NCBI GenBank assembly: GCA_013538855.1
Contig: JABXJS010000139.1
Span: 1-64,000 of the forward strand
Source: Herpetosiphonaceae bacterium
Lineage (GTDB): Bacteria; Chloroflexota; Chloroflexia; Chloroflexales; Herpetosiphonaceae
DNA: 64,000 nucleotides
Direction of reading: 5' to 3'
A program made the translations under genes and the position numbers. Each line of letters opens with the position of its first letter. Positions within the stretch are counted from its first letter, which is position 1. Shown here piece after piece: positions 9,856 through 64,000 of this stretch. The notes beneath the pieces are model-generated. The model was given only the letters and a program-made list of their open reading frames with translations. It was not told where the DNA came from and did not search any database.

Positions 9856-10557
9856 CTACCAGAGCCAGGGCAGCAGCCGTGCGCGTGTGCGGCGAGCGTA
9901 GGACCGATAGCCGGGCAGCTCGGCGCACAGCGTGCGGTCCTCCAGCGCCGTGCGCAGCACAAAGAGTGCAGCAAGCGCGGCGGCGGGCAGCCAAGCGTAG
10001 AGCGAGCCAAGCAGCGGCGGCGTCGCGAGGTGGGCCACGATGGTCGCCGCATAGCCGGGGTGGCGCAGCCAGCGGTAGGGGCCGCGGCTGATCACGTGGT
10101 GGCCGCGCTCGGACTGCACGCGCACGCCCTGGGCAAAGAACGGATTCACCGCCATGGCCCAGAGAAACCCAGCATGGCCAAGCACGGTCAGCGCCAGCCC
10201 CGCCAGGTGCACCGCCAGCGGCAGCGGCGGACTCCAGCCCCAGCGCACGTCGAGGCCCGCGACAAGCCAGATCAGCAGCATGCCCATGCCTGCAAACGCA
10301 GTGATCGGCTTGTCCCAGCGCTTGACGCCAGCGGCCCACATGCCCTGCTCGCGCGCGGCCAGCGCCGCCGGATTGGCGCGCCCGACAAGCAGCGGATGCG
10401 CCAGCAGCACCAGCAGCAGAACGCCGAGCAACACCCAGCCCCAGAGCCAGTCGAGCCGCCCGGCAGCGCCAAGCAGCAGCAGCCCGTAGGCCAGCGTAGC
10501 TAGCGTCGAGCGTCGTAGCCAGCGGCGCAGCAGCGGTGGTTCAAGCAGCGCGCTCAT
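9856..10557 (-). CDS. isoprenylcysteine carboxyl methyltransferase (ICMT) family membrane protein
   Basis: A 233-residue integral membrane protein with about five hydrophobic helices. The C-terminal signature GPYRWLRHPGYAA, followed by LEDRTL and a GYRSYARRTRARLLPWLW ending, is typical of the ICMT/phospholipid methyltransferase superfamily, where these segments bind S-adenosylmethionine. The bacterial substrate is usually unknown. It overlaps the preceding membrane-protein gene by four bases (ATGA), so both are cotranscribed and probably cooperate in the membrane. Confidence 0.8.
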   Translation of the reverse strand: MSALLEPPLLRRWLRRSTLATLAYGLLLLGAAGRLDWLWGWVLLGVLLLVLLAHPLLVGRANPAALAAREQGMWAAGVKRWDKPITAFAGMGMLLIWLVAGLDVRWGWSPPLPLAVHLAGLALTVLGHAGFLWAMAVNPFFAQGVRVQSERGHHVISRGPYRWLRHPGYAATIVAHLATPPLLGSLYAWLPAAALAALFVLRTALEDRTLCAELPGYRSYARRTRARLLPWLW

Positions 10558-11288
10558 TCGGCCACCTCCGTCAGCGGCTGCGCACCACGACGCCAGCGGT
10601 AGAGGTGCAGCGCCAAGGCCAGCGTGGCCACGGTCAGCGCGCCGCCCATGCCCAGGTTGATCGTCACAAAGACGAGCGCGGCCTGCTCCAGCCCATAGCC
10701 GACGCCGCCGAGCAAGCAGCTTGCGCCGCAGACCAGCAGGCTAACGCGAATGACGCGCGGCGCGCCGGAGCCGCTGAAGGCCGCCGCTGCCAGCAGCGTC
10801 GCAAGGCCCAGGCACAGCGTCCAGCCCAGCATGTTGATGGCGGACATGGCCGAGTAAGGATTGGCCTGCACGATCTGCTCCAGCCCAGCGTAGCTGCCGC
10901 TGCGCACTGCCGCCGGCACCGCCGTGAGCTGCACAACGTAGTGGCTGCCGGTGAGCGCGGCAAAGGCCAGCCCAAAGCACAGGCTGGCGCGGGTGAGCGG
11001 GCGCTGCTCCACCGCGCACAGCTCGTGGATGCTGCTGAGCAGCAGCACCAGCAGCGGGCCGAGCAGCAGCAGCATAAGCTGCGCCAGCCGCGCCAGCAGC
11101 GGCGGATTGGCGCGCGCGTAGGCCAGATAGCCAGCGAGACCATCCCACAGATAGAGCGGCTGCACCAGCAGCACAGCCACCAGACACACCGAAAAAACGA
11201 GCAGGGTCAGCGCCGCTCCCAGCGCCGCCCAAAAGCCTAGCGCCAGCGCAACGTGCAGGCGCGGTGAAACAACAGCAGCGTGCTGCAT
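10554..11288 (-). CDS. multi-pass membrane protein of unknown function
   Basis: A 244-residue protein with about six to seven hydrophobic segments (residues roughly 15-45, 68-90, 103-130, 155-175, 185-210, 213-235). I do not recognise a family. The ATG at 11288 has GGAGC ten bases upstream and is preferred to longer in-frame starts. It overlaps the ICMT-like gene by four bases, so the pair forms an operon. Confidence 0.65.
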   Translation of the reverse strand: MQHAAVVSPRLHVALALGFWAALGAALTLLVFSVCLVAVLLVQPLYLWDGLAGYLAYARANPPLLARLAQLMLLLLGPLLVLLLSSIHELCAVEQRPLTRASLCFGLAFAALTGSHYVVQLTAVPAAVRSGSYAGLEQIVQANPYSAMSAINMLGWTLCLGLATLLAAAAFSGSGAPRVIRVSLLVCGASCLLGGVGYGLEQAALVFVTINLGMGGALTVATLALALHLYRWRRGAQPLTEVAE

Positions 11289-11392
11289 AATCGTAGCTCC
11301 TGATTCATCAAGACTATCCGACAGGCACCACAACAGCGCGCCGACAGGCACAGCTCGCGATGCGACGAACACCCATGGTCAGGCGATACGAT

Positions 11393-11719
11393 CTAGCAGA
11401 GGAGGCAGCAGGAGAGCGGGAAGGCGCGGTAGGGCAGCGCCCGCGCCGAGGGCAGCCACAGCCGACGGCGGGCGCAGAACAGCCAGCGCAGCCGCGCCGC
11501 CACAAGCAGCCATGCGGCCGAGCCAGGCCAGCCCAGCCACCAGAGGCGCAGCCGCGCCTTGCGCATGATCAGCCACACGCCAGCGAGCAGCTGTGGCCCT
11601 GTGCCACGCCGCAGCGGCCTGTGCGCACGGCCCAGCCGCCCGGCCGCAGCAAGCGCAAATGCGCGCCGCAGCGAGCAGGCCGTAAGCAGCCAGCAGACTG
11701 TGAGCATGGCGAGAAGCAT
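11393..11719 (-). CDS. possible small arginine-rich membrane protein
   Basis: A 108-residue frame starting [12 protein letters not shown], with an N-terminal hydrophobic segment, a tryptophan/leucine/arginine-rich middle and a cysteine-rich end. It runs toward the membrane protein at 11288. There is no clear ribosome-binding site and no family match, so it may be chance coding in GC-rich DNA. If real it would be transcribed away from the LuxR gene. Confidence 0.3.
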
Positions 11720-11815
11720 AGCCACAGTATACACCACCGCAGCCGCACACGGTGTGGTATCATCGACCTGCATACACCGACCACAGCGCCCAGCGCTGCC
11801 ACCGCAAAGGCCACC

Positions 11816-14473
11816 ATGAGCACAGCACTCGCCTGGGTTGTCCAGACCAAGCTCCAGCTGCCCCCTGCGCGCATCGAGCAGATCGAGCGGCCACAGCTGA
11901 CCAACGCGATCTGTACGGCGCTGCAGCAACGCCGCCTTGTGCTGCTGGCGGCGGCGGCGGGCGCAGGCAAAACCACGCTGGCCGCCGCCGCATGTCGGGC
12001 CAGCGCCATGCCCACAGCCTGGCTCACGCTGGACGCAGACGACAGCGACCAGGCGCTGTTCCTCGCCAGCCTCATCGCAGCGCTGCAGACAATCGCCCCC
12101 GCCTGTGGCGCAGCCACGCTCTCGCTGCTGCCACAGCTCGACACGCGCACGCTGACGCTACGGCGGCTGATCGGCGTGCTCATCAACGAGACGCTGAGCG
12201 CGCTGCCGACGCCATGCGTGCTCGTCCTCGACGACCTGCACGTGCTCAGCGATCCAGCACTCTTTGACGCCCTCGACTACTTCATCGAGCACCTGCCGCC
12301 GCAGCTGCGTCTGCTCATCACCACCCGCCACGAGCCGCCGCTGGGGCTGGCCCGCCTGCGCGCGCGCGGCCAGCTGGCCGAGCTACAGCTCGCTGACCTG
12401 CGCTTCAGCGCCGCCGAGGCCGCCGCACTGCTCAACCAGCAGCTTGGCCTCAACCTTAGCCCCGCCGAGCTAGCGCAGGCGCTGGCGTATACCGAGGGCT
12501 GGCCGGCTGGCCTGCGCCTGATCGCCAGCGCCATCGAGCAGCAGGCGCGGCGCGGCGACAGCGGTGGACTGCTCGCCGCGCTGCCGACGATCGAGAGCAG
12601 CGCCTTCGCCTTCCTCAGCGCCGAGGTGCTGCGCGATCTCGACGAGGAAACCTACGATTTTCTGCTGGCAACCAGCATCCTCAGCGAGCTAACGCCGGAA
12701 CTGTGTGCAGCTGTCAGCGGCCGCAGCGACGCCGCCGCCGTGCTGGAGCAGCTGCGTCTGCGCAGCCTCTTTACAGTCGCCGACGATGCCGCCACGCCGC
12801 TACGCTACCACTCGCTCTTCGCCGAGCTGCTGCGCGAGCGCCTAGCCCACGAGCAGCCGCAGCGCTACCGCGAGCTGCATCGCCGCGCCGCCAGGGCCTG
12901 CATCCAGCCCGAGCGCGCTATCGGCCACGCGCTCGCCGCCACAGACTGGGAGCACGCCACCAGCTTGATCGAGCAGAGCGGACCACGGCTGCTGGGACAG
13001 GGCCAGCTGCGCCGCCTCGCCGACTGGCTGGCCGCCCTGCCCGACGTGCAGATCGCACAGTCGCCACAGCTGCTGCTGCTGCAGGGCCGCTGTCACTGGC
13101 AGCAGGGCGCGCTCGCTGCCGCCGAGCAGGCGTACACCGCCGCGCACCAAGGCTTTGTCGCCGCCAATAATCTGGTCGGCGCTGGCGAGGCGCTGGCCGG
13201 GCTGACCCTGCTCGCCGTGCTGCGCGGCCAGTTCAGCACAGGCGCACAGCTGCTGGAGACCGCGCTCTGCCACCCAACCAGCCCGCAGACGCGCATCCTG
13301 CTGCTGATCGGTCGCGCCCGCTTCGCCCTGCACACGTGCAGCTGGCCGCAGTTCGCCGCCGCGCTCGCCGAAGCCTTGGACCTATGCGAGCAGACGCACA
13401 GTCCGCAGCTTGTGGGCCAGCTGCTGAGCATGCTCGGGCCGCTGATGATCGTGCTGCCAGCTGGGCTGGCCTGTGCCGAGCGTGCCATCGAGCTAGCCCA
13501 GACGCTCCAGATTGCTGCGCATAGCGTCCATGGCCTAGCGCTCGAAACGCAGCGGGCATCGGTGCTGCTGCTACGCGGGCAGCTCGACGCAGCGCTGGCA
13601 GCAGGCCAGCGCGCCCTGGCGCTCAGCCAGATCTTCGACGCCGCTATGCCAATGCACAGCGTGCTGATCCACGCGCTGCTCTGCACAATCTGTATTGCGC
13701 GGCGCGACGAGCAGCAGGCGCTGCACTACCTCGCGCAGCTCGATGCTCGCAGCGGCACCCTGGATACACAGGATCAGAGCGCGGCAATTGGGCTGTTTTT
13801 GCTCGGGCGCATCCGCTGCCAGCAGGGCGCGATCAGCGCCGCCCAGCTGCTCTATGAGCAGATGATGTCGCTGCGTGACGCTGGGCCGATCCTCGGCCTG
13901 GACGTGCCGCTGCTGATCCTGCGCGCCCTCTTGGAGCAGGCCAGCGGTGCCGCGAGCGCCGCCGAGCAGACGCTGCTGACGGCGGTGGAGCTAGAGGACT
14001 CGCTGCGCTATGCGCAGGCCTTTGGCAGCGCGCGCGTGCCCCTGGCCCTGCTCTATCAGCGCCAGGGGCACCCAGCCCGTGCGCTGGCCGCCCTGCAGCC
14101 GGTGCTGGCGCTCTGTGTGGCCGAGCAGCGCCCTGGCCTGCTGCTCCGCGAGGGCGCGTCCATCATTCCGCTGCTGCGCCTAGCCCGCCAGCGCGGCCTG
14201 CACCCAGATGCAGCCCAGAGGCTGCTCGAGCAGCTCGGCGACGGCCAGCCGCACCTGCCTGTGCGCATCCCCGCGACCGGCGAGTCGCTCTCGCCACGGG
14301 AGATCGAGGTGCTGCGCCTGCTCGCCGCCGGAGCCAGCAACAGTGACATCGCCACCGAGCTTGTGATCAGCGTGCCCACCGTCAAGACCCACCTCGCGCG
14401 CATCTTCCGCAAGCTGGCGGTAAGCTCGCGCACGCAGGCCGCCGCCAGCGCACGCGCCCTCTTGCTGATCTAG
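11816..14473 (+). CDS. MalT-type (LAL) ATP-binding LuxR family regulator
   Basis: An 885-residue regulator of the large ATP-binding LuxR class. It opens with the [12 protein letters not shown] segment seen in MalT proteins, has a Walker A loop (AGAGKTTL, about residues 46-53) and a Walker B-like LVLDDLHVL near residue 140, then a long TPR-like helical repeat region, and ends with a LuxR helix-turn-helix ([15 protein letters not shown] ... [17 protein letters not shown]). MalT binds maltotriose and ATP to activate maltose genes; the inducer here is unknown. The ATG at 11816 fits the family N-terminus, so upstream in-frame codons are ignored. The likely target is the operon starting at 14599. 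Confidence 0.9.
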
Positions 14474-59361: not shown

Positions 59362-61017
59362 ATGGCCGAAGAAACCACACCAACCGCAGCCACCAGCGCC
59401 AGCGAGCCAGGGCTGAAGCGCCAGCTCTCGCAGGCCGTGGCCTGGAACGCCGTCTTTACACCGCTGAAGTTTGTCATCGACACCGCCGCCAACCTGATCA
59501 AGGCCAACCTGCTGCTGCCAGCGGAGATCGGCGCGCTGTCGGTGGTCAGCTCCGCCGCAGCCAGCGCCGGCATCTGGCTCGATCTCGGCATCGAGCAGAC
59601 GCTGCCCAAGTTTATCCCCGAGGCCGAGCATGCCGGTGGCCGTGGAGCGGCCCGCCGCTTTCTGCGCCAAATTATCAGCTTCAAGCTGCTGATCCTGCTG
59701 TTTGCCATCGTCGCGCTGCCGTTCTGGGGCGGCTCGCTGCTGCGCCAGATGCGCGCCGGCGCCGCCCAGCTCGCCGATAAGTACGGCCTCAGCGCCGTCG
59801 GCCCGCTGCTTGAGCAGCTCGACCGCTACGGCTGGGTGTTTCTGCTGACCATCGCCGCGCTGATCGTGCTCGGCGCGCTCTACGACACGCTGCTAGCCTT
59901 CCTGGTCAGCTTCTTTCGCCAGAAGGCGTGGAACATCATCAACGCCTTTGCCACGCTGGCGCTGCCGCTGCTGACGGTGATGGCCGTGCTGCTCGGCTGG
60001 GGCGTGATCGGCGTGCTGGTGGCGATGATCATCACCCCCGTGCTGAGCGTGCTGATCACCTGGAGCCATGTGCGTGCCATCAGCCGTGAGCGCGGCGGGT
60101 CGGCCGGTGAGGCGGCGGTGCCGCGCGATCTCTGGCGGCGCTTCGTGCCCTACACGGCCATGGGCCTGCTGATCAGCGGCACCGAGTACTTCTCCAGCTC
60201 GCAGTTTGTGGCGCTGTTTCTTGGCGGTGACAACCTGCAGGCGGTGGCGGTGTTCTGGATCATCTACAGCTTCATCAAGCAGGTGCAGGGCTACGTCTAC
60301 ACGCCGCTGCGCGGCATTCAGGTGCCGCTGTTCACGCGCATTCGCGCCAGCAACAACCAGAACCTCGACCGCGCCTGGGGCACGCTGATGCGCCTGATCC
60401 TGGTGCTGGTGCTACCGGCGGCGGTTGGCCTGAGCCTGCTGCTGCGCACGCTGATCCTGATCCAGTTTCCTGCTGAGTATCTGCAAGCGCTGGGCTTTGG
60501 GCTGGTGCTGATCCCGTTTTTCTTCAGCGAGCCGTTCTGGGGCCTGGGCCACAACCTGCTGATGGTGCAGGAGCAGTACCGCCCGGTGATGCTGTCGCGG
60601 CTCTGTGCGCTGATCAGCATCCCGCTGCTGATCTGGCTGCCGCCGCACGTGGGGCTGTGGGGCATCGCCATCGCCATCGGCAGCTCGAAGATGGCGGCGG
60701 GGCTGGTGGTGGTGAGCACGGCCATGCGGCGCTACCAGCTGCGCTTCCCGTGGCGCTTCGCGCTCAAGGTGGCGCTGGCAAGCTTGGTGATGGGCCTGGT
60801 GGTTGGCGGCGGCGTCTGGCTGCTCGGCGACCTCGGCACCGCCGCAAGCATCGCCCAGCGCATCGTCTACTGCGCCGCCTGCATGGCCCTGACGCTGGCC
60901 GGAGCCATCACGTTCGTGCTGCTGGCCCGCCTGCTCAAGCTCATCGAGCCAGCCGACCGCGCCCTGCTGCAAGAGCTGCGCAACCCCATGGCCCGCCGCC
61001 TCATCCGCCTGCTGTAG
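59362..61017 (+). CDS. polysaccharide/oligosaccharide flippase (MOP superfamily)
   Basis: A 551-residue protein with about 13-14 membrane helices in the pattern of Wzx/MurJ-like flippases: helix 1 after a soluble N-terminus (LKFVIDTAANLIKANLLLPAEIGALSVV), GIEQTLPKFIPEAEHAGG in the first loop region and PLFTRIRASNN near the middle. It would move a lipid-linked glycan across the membrane, completing the synthesis genes upstream. Confidence 0.85.
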   Translation: MAEETTPTAATSASEPGLKRQLSQAVAWNAVFTPLKFVIDTAANLIKANLLLPAEIGALSVVSSAAASAGIWLDLGIEQTLPKFIPEAEHAGGRGAARRFLRQIISFKLLILLFAIVALPFWGGSLLRQMRAGAAQLADKYGLSAVGPLLEQLDRYGWVFLLTIAALIVLGALYDTLLAFLVSFFRQKAWNIINAFATLALPLLTVMAVLLGWGVIGVLVAMIITPVLSVLITWSHVRAISRERGGSAGEAAVPRDLWRRFVPYTAMGLLISGTEYFSSSQFVALFLGGDNLQAVAVFWIIYSFIKQVQGYVYTPLRGIQVPLFTRIRASNNQNLDRAWGTLMRLILVLVLPAAVGLSLLLRTLILIQFPAEYLQALGFGLVLIPFFFSEPFWGLGHNLLMVQEQYRPVMLSRLCALISIPLLIWLPPHVGLWGIAIAIGSSKMAAGLVVVSTAMRRYQLRFPWRFALKVALASLVMGLVVGGGVWLLGDLGTAASIAQRIVYCAACMALTLAGAITFVLLARLLKLIEPADRALLQELRNPMARRLIRLL

Positions 61018-61337
61018 CCGTCTAACCAGCCCAGAGCACCCACTCATCCCTGCGCTAGCCAACCCAAGCGCAGGGGTGTGTGGAGCGTATTCAGAAGCCT
61101 ACGCGCAGAAAATCGTATGCTATGCACATCGAAGCTGAGCAGAGTCCACCGCTCGTTTGATTTTTGCCCCAAACATCTCCACATAGCGCATGCACTACGC
61201 AGCACAGCACATGGCAGCCGTGCTGCTCGGCACCCCCACATTGATGCCTAAATGGCTATTGCTCTACCTTCAGCTAAACGCTAGGATGGACACACCCATC
61301 ACAGGTACCTCCGTTCGGCACACAGCAGGAGAATACG
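61018..61337. other. 320-bp intergenic region, hairpin and promoter
   Basis: Contains a 9-bp hairpin (61048-61056 with 61067-61075) that likely ends the flippase transcript, and a weak promoter for the next gene (TTGCTC 61259-61264, 17 bp, TAGGAT 61282-61287). No gene is supported. The GC content drops here relative to the upstream DNA. Confidence 0.5.
61048..61075 (+). terminator. hairpin after the flippase gene
   Basis: CCCTGCGCT and AGCGCAGGG form a 9-bp stem with a 10-base loop, 30 bases after the stop; no T-tract. Confidence 0.45.
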
Positions 61338-62210
61338 ATGTTCAACAACGCAGCAGTCAAACGACTAAAGGCACTCGCGGCCAATATTGAAGAAGTACAA
61401 GCAAGCATCACCAGTAGCGCTGAGGCGCTCTACCAACTCCGGCAGACCACCGCTGAGACGCAGATTCGCGCCTGCGAGCGCTACCTTTCACAGCTTGCCA
61501 ACGCACCCAAAGAGCTAGACGCCTCTGTCGCACAGCTTAAGCTAGAGTTCGCCTCGTTTTCCGAAGCCGTGTCCAGTCTTGAGGCCGAGGCTATCGCCAC
61601 CACAGTAAAGGTTGGCGGCGGCGCAGCAACCGGCGTTGCCGCTGGCGTTGGCGTGGCCGCGCTGGCCCCAACTGCCGCCATGGCTATCGCCACCACATTT
61701 GGCACAGCCTCGACAGGCACGGCGATTGCCTCGCTCTCTGGCGCGGCGGCCACCAACGCTGCCCTCGCCTGGCTTGGTGGCGGCGCGCTGGCAGCTGGTG
61801 GCGGCGGCATGGCCGCAGGCAACGTCCTACTAGCCCTGGCTGGTCCAGTCGGGTGGGCCATAGGCGGTTTCAGCTTAGCCGGTGCTACGGTGGTCGCCCT
61901 GCGCAGTAACTCACAGCTCACAGAGAAGGCCAACGCCCAGTACAGGGAGCTATTCCAACACTTACAGCTGCTGCAAGGCGCAGTAGTACAGATCAACGAC
62001 CTGCTTGAGCGCACGCGGACTCACAGCCAAGGCATCGACGCGCAGCTCAGCTGGCTTGCTGCTAAGGCTCCCACCAGCTATGACCACTTCAACACCGACC
62101 AAAAATTACAGCTCGGCGCACTCATCAACAACATTAACTCGCTGAGCCAGCTGCTCAACCGCCGAATCGACGTCGAGCCGCTAGCTGGGGCAGCCGATGC
62201 CTCAGCCTGA
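61338..62210 (+). CDS. unknown protein: coiled coil with glycine-rich hydrophobic core (module gene 1)
   Basis: A 290-residue protein of three parts: a helical, probably coiled-coil N-terminus (residues 1-90), a glycine/alanine-rich hydrophobic block (about 93-190, with STGTAIASLSGAAATNAALAWLGGG and AAGGGGMAAGNVLLALAGPVGWAIGG), and a helical C-terminus. The middle block could insert into membranes or form glycine-zipper hairpins. I have seen similar blocks in uncharacterised bacterial proteins but know no function. AGGAGAA precedes the ATG. It overlaps the next gene by 14 bases. Confidence 0.75.
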   Translation: MFNNAAVKRLKALAANIEEVQASITSSAEALYQLRQTTAETQIRACERYLSQLANAPKELDASVAQLKLEFASFSEAVSSLEAEAIATTVKVGGGAATGVAAGVGVAALAPTAAMAIATTFGTASTGTAIASLSGAAATNAALAWLGGGALAAGGGGMAAGNVLLALAGPVGWAIGGFSLAGATVVALRSNSQLTEKANAQYRELFQHLQLLQGAVVQINDLLERTRTHSQGIDAQLSWLAAKAPTSYDHFNTDQKLQLGALINNINSLSQLLNRRIDVEPLAGAADASA

Positions 62211-63705
62211 ACGCCACATCCTTGAGCAGGGACTCGCAGCATGGATCGACCAACTCAACCAGGCGCGGCGTGCACCACTCTTCGCTAGCCTCAGTGCACT
62301 TCAGGCCGCACTTGATGGGCAGGAGCGCGCATTCGTCGCGGCCTGGGCTGAGCTAGCCTGGGTGCAAGAGCAGATCAGCACACCTGAGCATATTTTAGGC
62401 AGCGCGGCCACCAAGCACGGCGAGATCGCCGAGATCGCCGAGGTAGGGCTGCGCCGTGCGTTTGATGTCCTACGGCAGCAACCTCCTAGCGCTGTCTGGA
62501 ATGCCACAGATCGGCTTGGGCCTGCCGATTACCACATCAGTGGCGTGGCGGTGCAGTCCAAGTTCATCAATGGCATCAACAGCGGCCTCAAACACATGCT
62601 TGATCACGCAGCCCGCTACCCAGAGTTCGGCACACACGACGGTGCCTACTATCACATTCCTAGCGACCAGCACGCTGCCATTCAGCGTGTGCTAGCCAAT
62701 GAGCCAACCGAGTTTAGCGCACGAACCATCGCCACAATCAAGGCGCAGGTGGCAGAACTTGAGGTCAGCAAAAACCGTTCCTTTTCTGATCTGGTTCGTC
62801 CTGCGGCACACACATATGCCGACGTGCAGCAAGGTCGCATCCAGCAAACCCTCACTCAGCATGAGCAGAGACTCAGCGCTGAGCATCAATCCCTTAAACA
62901 GCAGATTGCTGCGGAGCACAAAAAATCCATCGAAGCAACTCAAGCACAGTCGGCACCTACGCTCGCGCAGCTCGGCCAAGTCGCGCTCGTCGGCAGCGCT
63001 GTCGGCGGCGGTGTGCAGATCACGGGCATGGTGTATCAAAAGTGGGCGCGAGAGCACAAGTCGCCGCTCCAGCTTAGCGCCGCCGACTGGCAGGAGATCA
63101 GCGTAGGCGGTTTAGCTGGTGCGGCAGCGGGAGGCATATCAGCCGCCGCCCTCTATGGTCTGACCAACTATTCGGCGTTGAGCGCACCATTTGCTGCTGC
63201 TGTTGTCAGCGCTGGCCGTGGCGTTTCCAGCTTGCTGCATCAGTATCAGCAGGGGAGCATCGATCTGGACACGCTCGTCGATCTCAGCTTCGTCACGACT
63301 GCCGAGGCGGGCATAGTCGCGCTTGGCGCAGCACTTGGGCAAAGCCTCATACCGCTCCCGATTCTCGGTGCACTGGTCGGCAGCGTCGCCGCTCGCTTGA
63401 TCAGTGGCCTAGCCCAGCAGCAACTTACTGAACACGCCGAACAGCTCAACCAGCGCGTAGAAGCCCAGCTTCAGCAGCAGCTCGCCAGCCTGAACGCTGC
63501 ACAGCGCCTAAGACTTGCCCATATCGAGGCCGACATACTGCGCATAGGCGATCTAACCACTGCCGCCTTTGATCTTGCACGCAACGCTGAATTGCTGTTG
63601 CTAGCTAGCATTCAGCTTGCCGAAGCCTACGCTGTGCCCACCGATCAAATTATCCGCTCCAGCGCCGATGTCGATGCCTATATGTGCGGACCAAACAGCG
63701 GCTAA
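62197..63705 (+). CDS. unknown protein: nuclease-like motif, coiled coil and hydrophobic segments (module gene 2)
   Basis: A 502-residue protein. Residues 100-160 contain GPADYHISGVAVQSKFINGINSGLKHMLDH; Asp111...Gln120-Ser-Lys122 resembles a PD-(D/E)XK-type core with Gln in place of Glu. A coiled coil follows (about 205-255), then glycine/alanine-rich hydrophobic stretches (about 265-280, 300-340 and 365-415) and a second helical region. No family is recognised. The nuclease reading is an inference from one motif. Codon use is less GC-rich than in neighbours, which suggests transfer together with gene 1. Confidence 0.75.
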   Translation: MPQPERHILEQGLAAWIDQLNQARRAPLFASLSALQAALDGQERAFVAAWAELAWVQEQISTPEHILGSAATKHGEIAEIAEVGLRRAFDVLRQQPPSAVWNATDRLGPADYHISGVAVQSKFINGINSGLKHMLDHAARYPEFGTHDGAYYHIPSDQHAAIQRVLANEPTEFSARTIATIKAQVAELEVSKNRSFSDLVRPAAHTYADVQQGRIQQTLTQHEQRLSAEHQSLKQQIAAEHKKSIEATQAQSAPTLAQLGQVALVGSAVGGGVQITGMVYQKWAREHKSPLQLSAADWQEISVGGLAGAAAGGISAAALYGLTNYSALSAPFAAAVVSAGRGVSSLLHQYQQGSIDLDTLVDLSFVTTAEAGIVALGAALGQSLIPLPILGALVGSVAARLISGLAQQQLTEHAEQLNQRVEAQLQQQLASLNAAQRLRLAHIEADILRIGDLTTAAFDLARNAELLLLASIQLAEAYAVPTDQIIRSSADVDAYMCGPNSG

Positions 63706-63856
63706 CGGCTCCCGCTGTCCACCAGAAACCACAGCCACGACCCACCTGTCCAAAGCGCCAGCGGCTGGTCGGCGCGCTGGCCGATGTGGGCGCGGCGATC
63801 CTCTGCTATAGTTGCTGCCAGGAACAGCGCTTTAGCACCTGATGAAAGCAGGAACT
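63706..63856. other. intergenic region before the N-acetyltransferase gene
   Basis: No gene or strong hairpin is seen. GCAGGAA lies before the next ATG as a weak ribosome-binding site. Confidence 0.4.
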
Positions 63857-64000
63857 ATGACAGAGACCGATCACACCGTCGATCTGGCGGCATACTTTGC
63901 CCGGATTGGCTACACTAGCTCGACCGAGCCAACGCTGGCGACGCTGGCAGGCATTGTGCGCCAGCACGCCCACAGCATCCCGTTCGAGAACCTGACGCCG
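63857..64000 (+). CDS. nat: arylamine N-acetyltransferase (5' part, cut by window end)
   Basis: The first 48 residues (VDLAAYFARIGYTSSTEPTLATLAGIVRQHAHSIPFENL) match the start of NAT enzymes, which move acetyl groups from acetyl-CoA to arylamines through a Cys-His-Asp triad. The catalytic cysteine lies beyond the window. Confidence 0.85.
   Translation, partial: MTETDHTVDLAAYFARIGYTSSTEPTLATLAGIVRQHAHSIPFENLTP

Follow-up and report, generated by a model that had tools for sequence, protein, structure and literature searches.

Near the end of a 64,000-nucleotide stretch of a Herpetosiphonaceae contig (JABXJS010000139.1, positions 1 to 64,000; hereafter the window) lie two overlapping genes, A and B, which a sequence-only reading had taken for an acquired and undescribed system of the phage-defence or toxin type. 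The question raised by this locus is whether the two genes belong together, whether they are indeed undescribed, and how their products could act.

The gene pair and its genomic setting

The genes and the gap in front of them are located as follows:

61338..62210, + strand, gene A (PDC-M09A), 290 aa
62197..63705, + strand, gene B (PDC-M09B), 502 aa
61018..61337, no strand, AT-richer intergenic gap of 320 bases (55.6% GC) upstream of A

Both reading frames were reproduced, including their overlap of 14 bases on the + strand, and a Shine-Dalgarno-like AGGAG is found close 5' of the ATG of A. The promoter of its own that had been assigned to the pair was not recovered: a consensus scan of positions 60900-64000, covering the sigma-70 type only, returned neither a sigma-70-like promoter nor a terminator, and upstream of A there is just the AT-richer gap. 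The lower GC content was confirmed, with 60.2% for the pair falling below all 295 same-size upstream windows (mean 66.0%, sd 2.2, minimum 61.1%), and GC3 was 0.67 for A and 0.63 for B, compared to 0.92 in the preceding flippase-like gene. Protein B was absent from all 99 other genomes searched, which ranged from the same family up to the same class, and the only full-length match among 400 genomes of the phylum was the window's own. The patchy distribution and the GC content together support acquisition of the pair, as the sequence-only reading had supposed.

The pair is flanked by the flippase-like gene upstream and an arylamine N-acetyltransferase gene downstream, followed by small low-GC ORFs and then isocitrate dehydrogenase; with such flanks, the window locus does not qualify as a defence island. 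Relatives of the flippase-like gene mostly had 31-37% identity and the N-acetyltransferase was matched in just one of 12 relatives, and weakly (26% identity); the empty-site comparison had no usable flanks. In the downstream region (window 63842-64000; L139:3842-7540, corresponding to contig 63842-67540) the N-acetyltransferase precedes low-GC ORFs of 391, 186 and 185 aa, the first two of which had no Pfam match. The acquired stretch may run on beyond the A/B pair into these ORFs.

Assignment to a catalogued candidate family

In PADLOC-DB, A matched PDLC04407 (PDC-M09A) with an E-value of 7.2e-100 (residues 4-277 on 8-280 of 282), and B matched PDLC04409 (PDC-M09B) with an E-value of 1.5e-154 (residues 5-497 on 6-479 of 480). 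The matches are near full length, and gene order and orientation are identical. Judged by these profile matches, the pair is the PADLOC-DB phage-defence candidate PDC-M09, a catalogued system and not an undescribed one as had been suggested. PDC-M09 is otherwise a bare catalogue entry, of which the window copy is one that sits outside defence islands, and a search of a text library of papers found none on its name, its mechanism or an anti-phage experiment. The PDCs are candidates from a 'guilt-by-embedding' approach and most have not been validated by experiment (PMC12988326); two other PDCs tried in their native host had no activity (PMC12409345).

The family has hosts among cyanobacteria, proteobacteria, Bacillota, Bacteroidota and Actinomycetota. 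Altogether 157 genome loci were found, of which 80 were kept, and 60 plasmid records carry the family, 46 of them from Klebsiella and others from Lactococcus, Leptolyngbya, Rhodococcus, Niallia and Curtobacterium. Six IMG/VR contigs carry both A and B, and a single-protein scan of viral contigs returned nothing.

Conservation of the pair as a unit

In 78 of the 80 genome loci B is directly preceded by a co-oriented A, which usually overlaps it or ends within tens of bases of it, the exceptions being L026, which has no A, and L078, in which B is cut off. The distance matrices of the two proteins are correlated with r=0.88 (permutation maximum 0.12), a value to which shared host ancestry contributes, and in genome G585 they are fused into one protein of 758 aa (L231:3478-5754; A profile over residues 1-247, B profile over 285-756, E 1e-144). 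The co-occurrence and the fusion bear out the proposal that the genes form a two-gene module.

Several variants of this arrangement were observed. Four divergent operons have the order B'-TerB-A' (L140:6389-9559, L141:4746-7899, L227:3119-6278 and L228:2228-5390) and come from three Lachnospiraceae-type genomes, TerB being assigned by Pfam in three operons and by the operon's own profile in the fourth; genome G472 holds two B'-TerB-A' operons plus a canonical pair. A protein of 839-840 aa comes right after B at L032:11459-13978 and L099:3471-5993; it is hydrophobic in its N-terminal part, contains a second E-D-QxK core resembling that of M09B and belongs to no Pfam family. At L113:6160-8698 and L114:15-1605, on contigs that carry serine recombinases, the partner upstream of A is another protein (481 aa in L113), one with no recognised nuclease motif. 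L053 has two A genes in a row.

Gene neighbourhoods of the relatives

The neighbourhoods were assessed for 24 loci on long contigs, using the six nearest ORFs of each and, as a control, six ORFs lying tens to hundreds of kilobases off on that contig. The near ORFs (140) matched 177 PADLOC models at E<=1e-15 and the far ORFs (141) 28, these being counts of matching models and not of genes, since several models can match one ORF. The matches near the pair included type I methyltransferase and specificity subunits, type IV restriction, retron I-B, PARIS AriA, BREX helicase-like proteins, Azaca ZacC and WYL regulators. The relatives of the pair thus lie among defence genes, unlike the window copy, and the association is partly to be expected, because PDC candidates were chosen by it. 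In Enterobacter (L032) a WYL-HTH gene, identified by Pfam, ends immediately 5' of A, and Yersinia (L031) and Serratia (L070) each carry an ORF in the matching position. Proteins of the WYL type are known to regulate defence loci. Moreover, the Leptolyngbya copy adjoins McrBC-like genes, the Niallia plasmid copy is near an LXG toxin and on Klebsiella plasmids the pair lies next to the ter operon.

On Lactococcus plasmids, HTH-dynamin genes flank the pair (L007:10259-12445; L017:4789-6816 and 10259-12445), a setting which recalls Eleos (LeoA/LeoBC), and one of these genes matches the A profile weakly (E 2e-5). Protein A itself has weak similarity to Eleos/LeoBC (E 8e-5), as have a few B homologues, in the coiled-coil and hydrophobic regions. 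Unlike Eleos, neither A nor B has a Pfam match to Dynamin_N or a GTPase domain.

Protein A

Protein A consists of an N-terminal helical hairpin (residues 4-52 and 58-94), an uncharged Gly/Ala block (92-188) and C-terminal helices (186-243 and 253-273):

61611..61901, + strand, uncharged block of A, residues 92-188 (D/E/K/R-free run, column conservation)

The block is a run of 97 residues without D, E, K or R, and in 20,000 shuffles of A such a run averaged 28 residues and never exceeded 89. The coiled coils and Gly/Ala-rich hydrophobic blocks previously noted in the pair are indeed present. The uncharged block is also the most conserved part of the protein, with an average column conservation of 88% over residues 111-175 compared to about 40% in the coiled coils. 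We propose that the block is a membrane-inserting hairpin, although its predicted structure has low confidence. A membrane hairpin would fit the A-B fusion at L231, which lacks the conserved block and has in its stead a strongly charged loop between two hydrophobic stretches.

Foldseek searches of fold libraries with A gave no significant match. With ClyA-type toxins (ClyA, AhlB and SmhB) it shares a long helical coiled coil and one long hydrophobic block, but it has no significant fold or sequence match to them and no sign of secretion; the ClyA/Ahl/Smh fold was not matched (best E 0.54, TM <0.4, with the block of A poorly modelled). The PDB sequence matches of A are coiled coils and were not used as relatives.

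Protein B

Three parts of protein B were distinguished:

62413..62667, + strand, nuclease-like core of B, residues 73-157 (conservation and predicted model)
62839..62949, + strand, coiled-coil helix of B, residues 215-251 (AlphaFold model)
62962..63489, + strand, membrane-type half of B, residues 256-431 (conservation and model)

In 91 homologues with identities down to 25%, B has 17 invariant columns. Eight of these hold polar residues (H74, E79, E82, D111, Q120, K122, Y207 and D297), the first six of them within the core. The sequence-only reading had drawn attention to Asp111, Gln120, Ser121 and Lys122, which sit at the positions given, and to the conservation of Asp111 and Lys122 as a check; E79, E82, D111, Q120 and K122 are invariant in 91 of 91 homologues. 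The genome scan was seeded with a pattern spanning H74-E82, so that invariance there is partly by construction, but D111, Q120 and K122 lie outside the pattern and are free of its bias. An independent tblastn search gave eight plasmid homologues, and in these and the window B all six core residues are likewise invariant. Most of the more distant relatives retain the motif: the 839-aa proteins of L032 and L099 keep HGFAAE, D and QTK, and B' of L140 keeps GFSAE and QMK. In the second B of L041, SSK replaces QxK.

The AlphaFold model of the core comprises a helix (73-92), three strands (99-101, 112-114 and 117-121), a second helix (127-140) and a final strand (151-154), i.e. an alpha-beta-beta-beta-alpha-beta topology, with pLDDT ~95 and block pLDDT mostly 85-98. 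H74, E79 and E82 are placed on the first helix, and D111, Q120 and K122 with strands 99-121. This is the order found in PD-(D/E)XK nucleases of the E-D-QxK type (Mrr-like and others), with which B shares the Glu of helix 1, the Asp of strand 2 and the Gln-x-Lys of strand 3. B differs in that no profile similarity to the group was detected and in that its core is joined to a hydrophobic half rather than to a DNA-recognition domain.

Searches for a named nuclease relative found none. Pfam and NCBIfam gave nothing above cut-off for A or B, a PDB sequence search with the core gave no significant match, and a viral fold library nothing significant. Alignment of the core by hhalign to Mrr and UPF0102 was no better than to shuffled columns (a weak comparison for UPF0102, some of whose rows are possibly on the wrong strand), and Foldseek with the whole of B, a search dominated by the helical half, gave no significant match and no named nuclease. 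Among the PDB sequence matches, botulinum and kinesin chains were regarded as chance (E>0.03), and Tim17/NDUFA11-type four-helix proteins from the Foldseek PDB search with B were set aside (probability 0.93-0.99, but E about 0.5). The PD-(D/E)XK superfamily is known to diverge past the reach of profiles. For the core, motif invariance and predicted topology stand, but the profile and structure searches linked it to no known nuclease. The assignment as a PD-(D/E)XK-type nuclease of the E-D-QxK kind is accordingly strong by motif and predicted topology and unproven by homology.

The membrane-type half consists of helices rich in small residues and includes the invariant D297-W298 and IPxPxxGxxxG at 385-395. 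At L229:861-2369 a B-like Gly-rich membrane half is joined to Endonuclea_NS_2 (Pfam E 2.6e-8, above cut-off), its match to the B' profile being possibly inflated by low-complexity composition. This domain swap suggests that the effector or nuclease domain may be exchangeable.

Proposed mechanism and alternative explanations

A conserved two-gene unit, a catalytic signature, long hydrophobic segments in both proteins and an association with defence genes emerged from the computations. With moderate confidence, we regard the pair as a PDC-M09 phage-defence module with a membrane-sited, conditionally activated nuclease; the DNA cutting, the membrane insertion, the activating signal and the anti-phage protection are what we infer. 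The block of A and the C-terminal half of B would bring the two proteins together on or in the inner membrane, and this assembly would hold the B nuclease inactive or poised there. A signal of infection, most simply the entry of phage DNA or a disturbance of the membrane, would then switch on the complex and B would cut DNA, either the incoming phage DNA or, in an abortive infection, the host chromosome.

The main rival to nuclease-based defence is pore-forming suicide, which we consider rather unlikely. Here, A would resemble alpha-pore-forming toxins (a ClyA/Ahl/Smh-like hairpin with a hydrophobic head) and, together with the hydrophobic half of B, would permeabilise the inner membrane and kill the infected cell, the nuclease-like core being a sensor or auxiliary part. 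The long helices of A around a hydrophobic block that tops its conservation, the presence of ClyA, SmhB and AhlB/C among its non-significant fold matches, and the partner without a recognised nuclease motif in L113 and L114 are consistent with this, but E exceeds 0.4 and the TM-scores are low for those fold matches, and the strict conservation of E79/E82/D111/Q120/K122 in B argues that catalysis matters. A further alternative is a constantly active restriction enzyme that depends on sequence or modification and is anchored in the membrane to meet incoming DNA, with no suicide involved. The McrBC-like genes beside the Leptolyngbya copy point that way, and Mrr-type QxK nucleases are often modification-dependent; however, Pfam shows no specificity, methyltransferase or modified-base-binding domain, and conserved membrane-type parts are atypical for restriction enzymes, so that we find this decidedly improbable. 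Since the pair comes with neither a methyltransferase nor another partner for self-marking, we consider conditional activation more probable than restriction at all times.

A toxin for bacterial competition, combining a nuclease with a translocation-like domain and unrelated to phage defence, would account for the Endonuclea_NS_2 domain joined to the membrane half in L229 and for the LXG toxin near the Niallia copy. We give it very little weight, as neither a secretion leader nor an immunity gene was recognised, B is nearly always accompanied by A, and the pair is surrounded by restriction, retron, PARIS and WYL genes. It is very improbable that the pair has a housekeeping membrane or stress function, for instance with the Ter stress proteins, and was merely swept into islands: its place beside the ter operon on Klebsiella plasmids and the B'-TerB-A' operons of the Lachnospiraceae relatives would fit, but its distribution is patchy (one full-length match in 400 genomes of the phylum, yet many phyla and plasmids) and it is enriched in islands.

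Returning to the membrane-sited nuclease, a broader and tentative version of it, possible though doubtful, is that the family constitutes a modular membrane-sited platform. A and the membrane half of B would form its constant part, to which exchangeable effectors (the E-D-QxK nuclease in the window pair, and in other members Endonuclea_NS_2 or an unrecognised domain) would be added, optionally along with TerB or a second nuclease as further subunits, and sensing of phage DNA entry or membrane damage would release the nuclease. To our knowledge, such release of a nuclease at the membrane has not been described for known systems.

Conclusions

What is new here is mechanistic evidence for a candidate family that had already been catalogued. 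PDC-M09 is widespread, yet no published mechanism was found for it. With catalytic residues that do not vary, A fused to B in one genome and domains swapped in others, the catalogue entry becomes a specific hypothesis, namely that of a membrane-sited nuclease.
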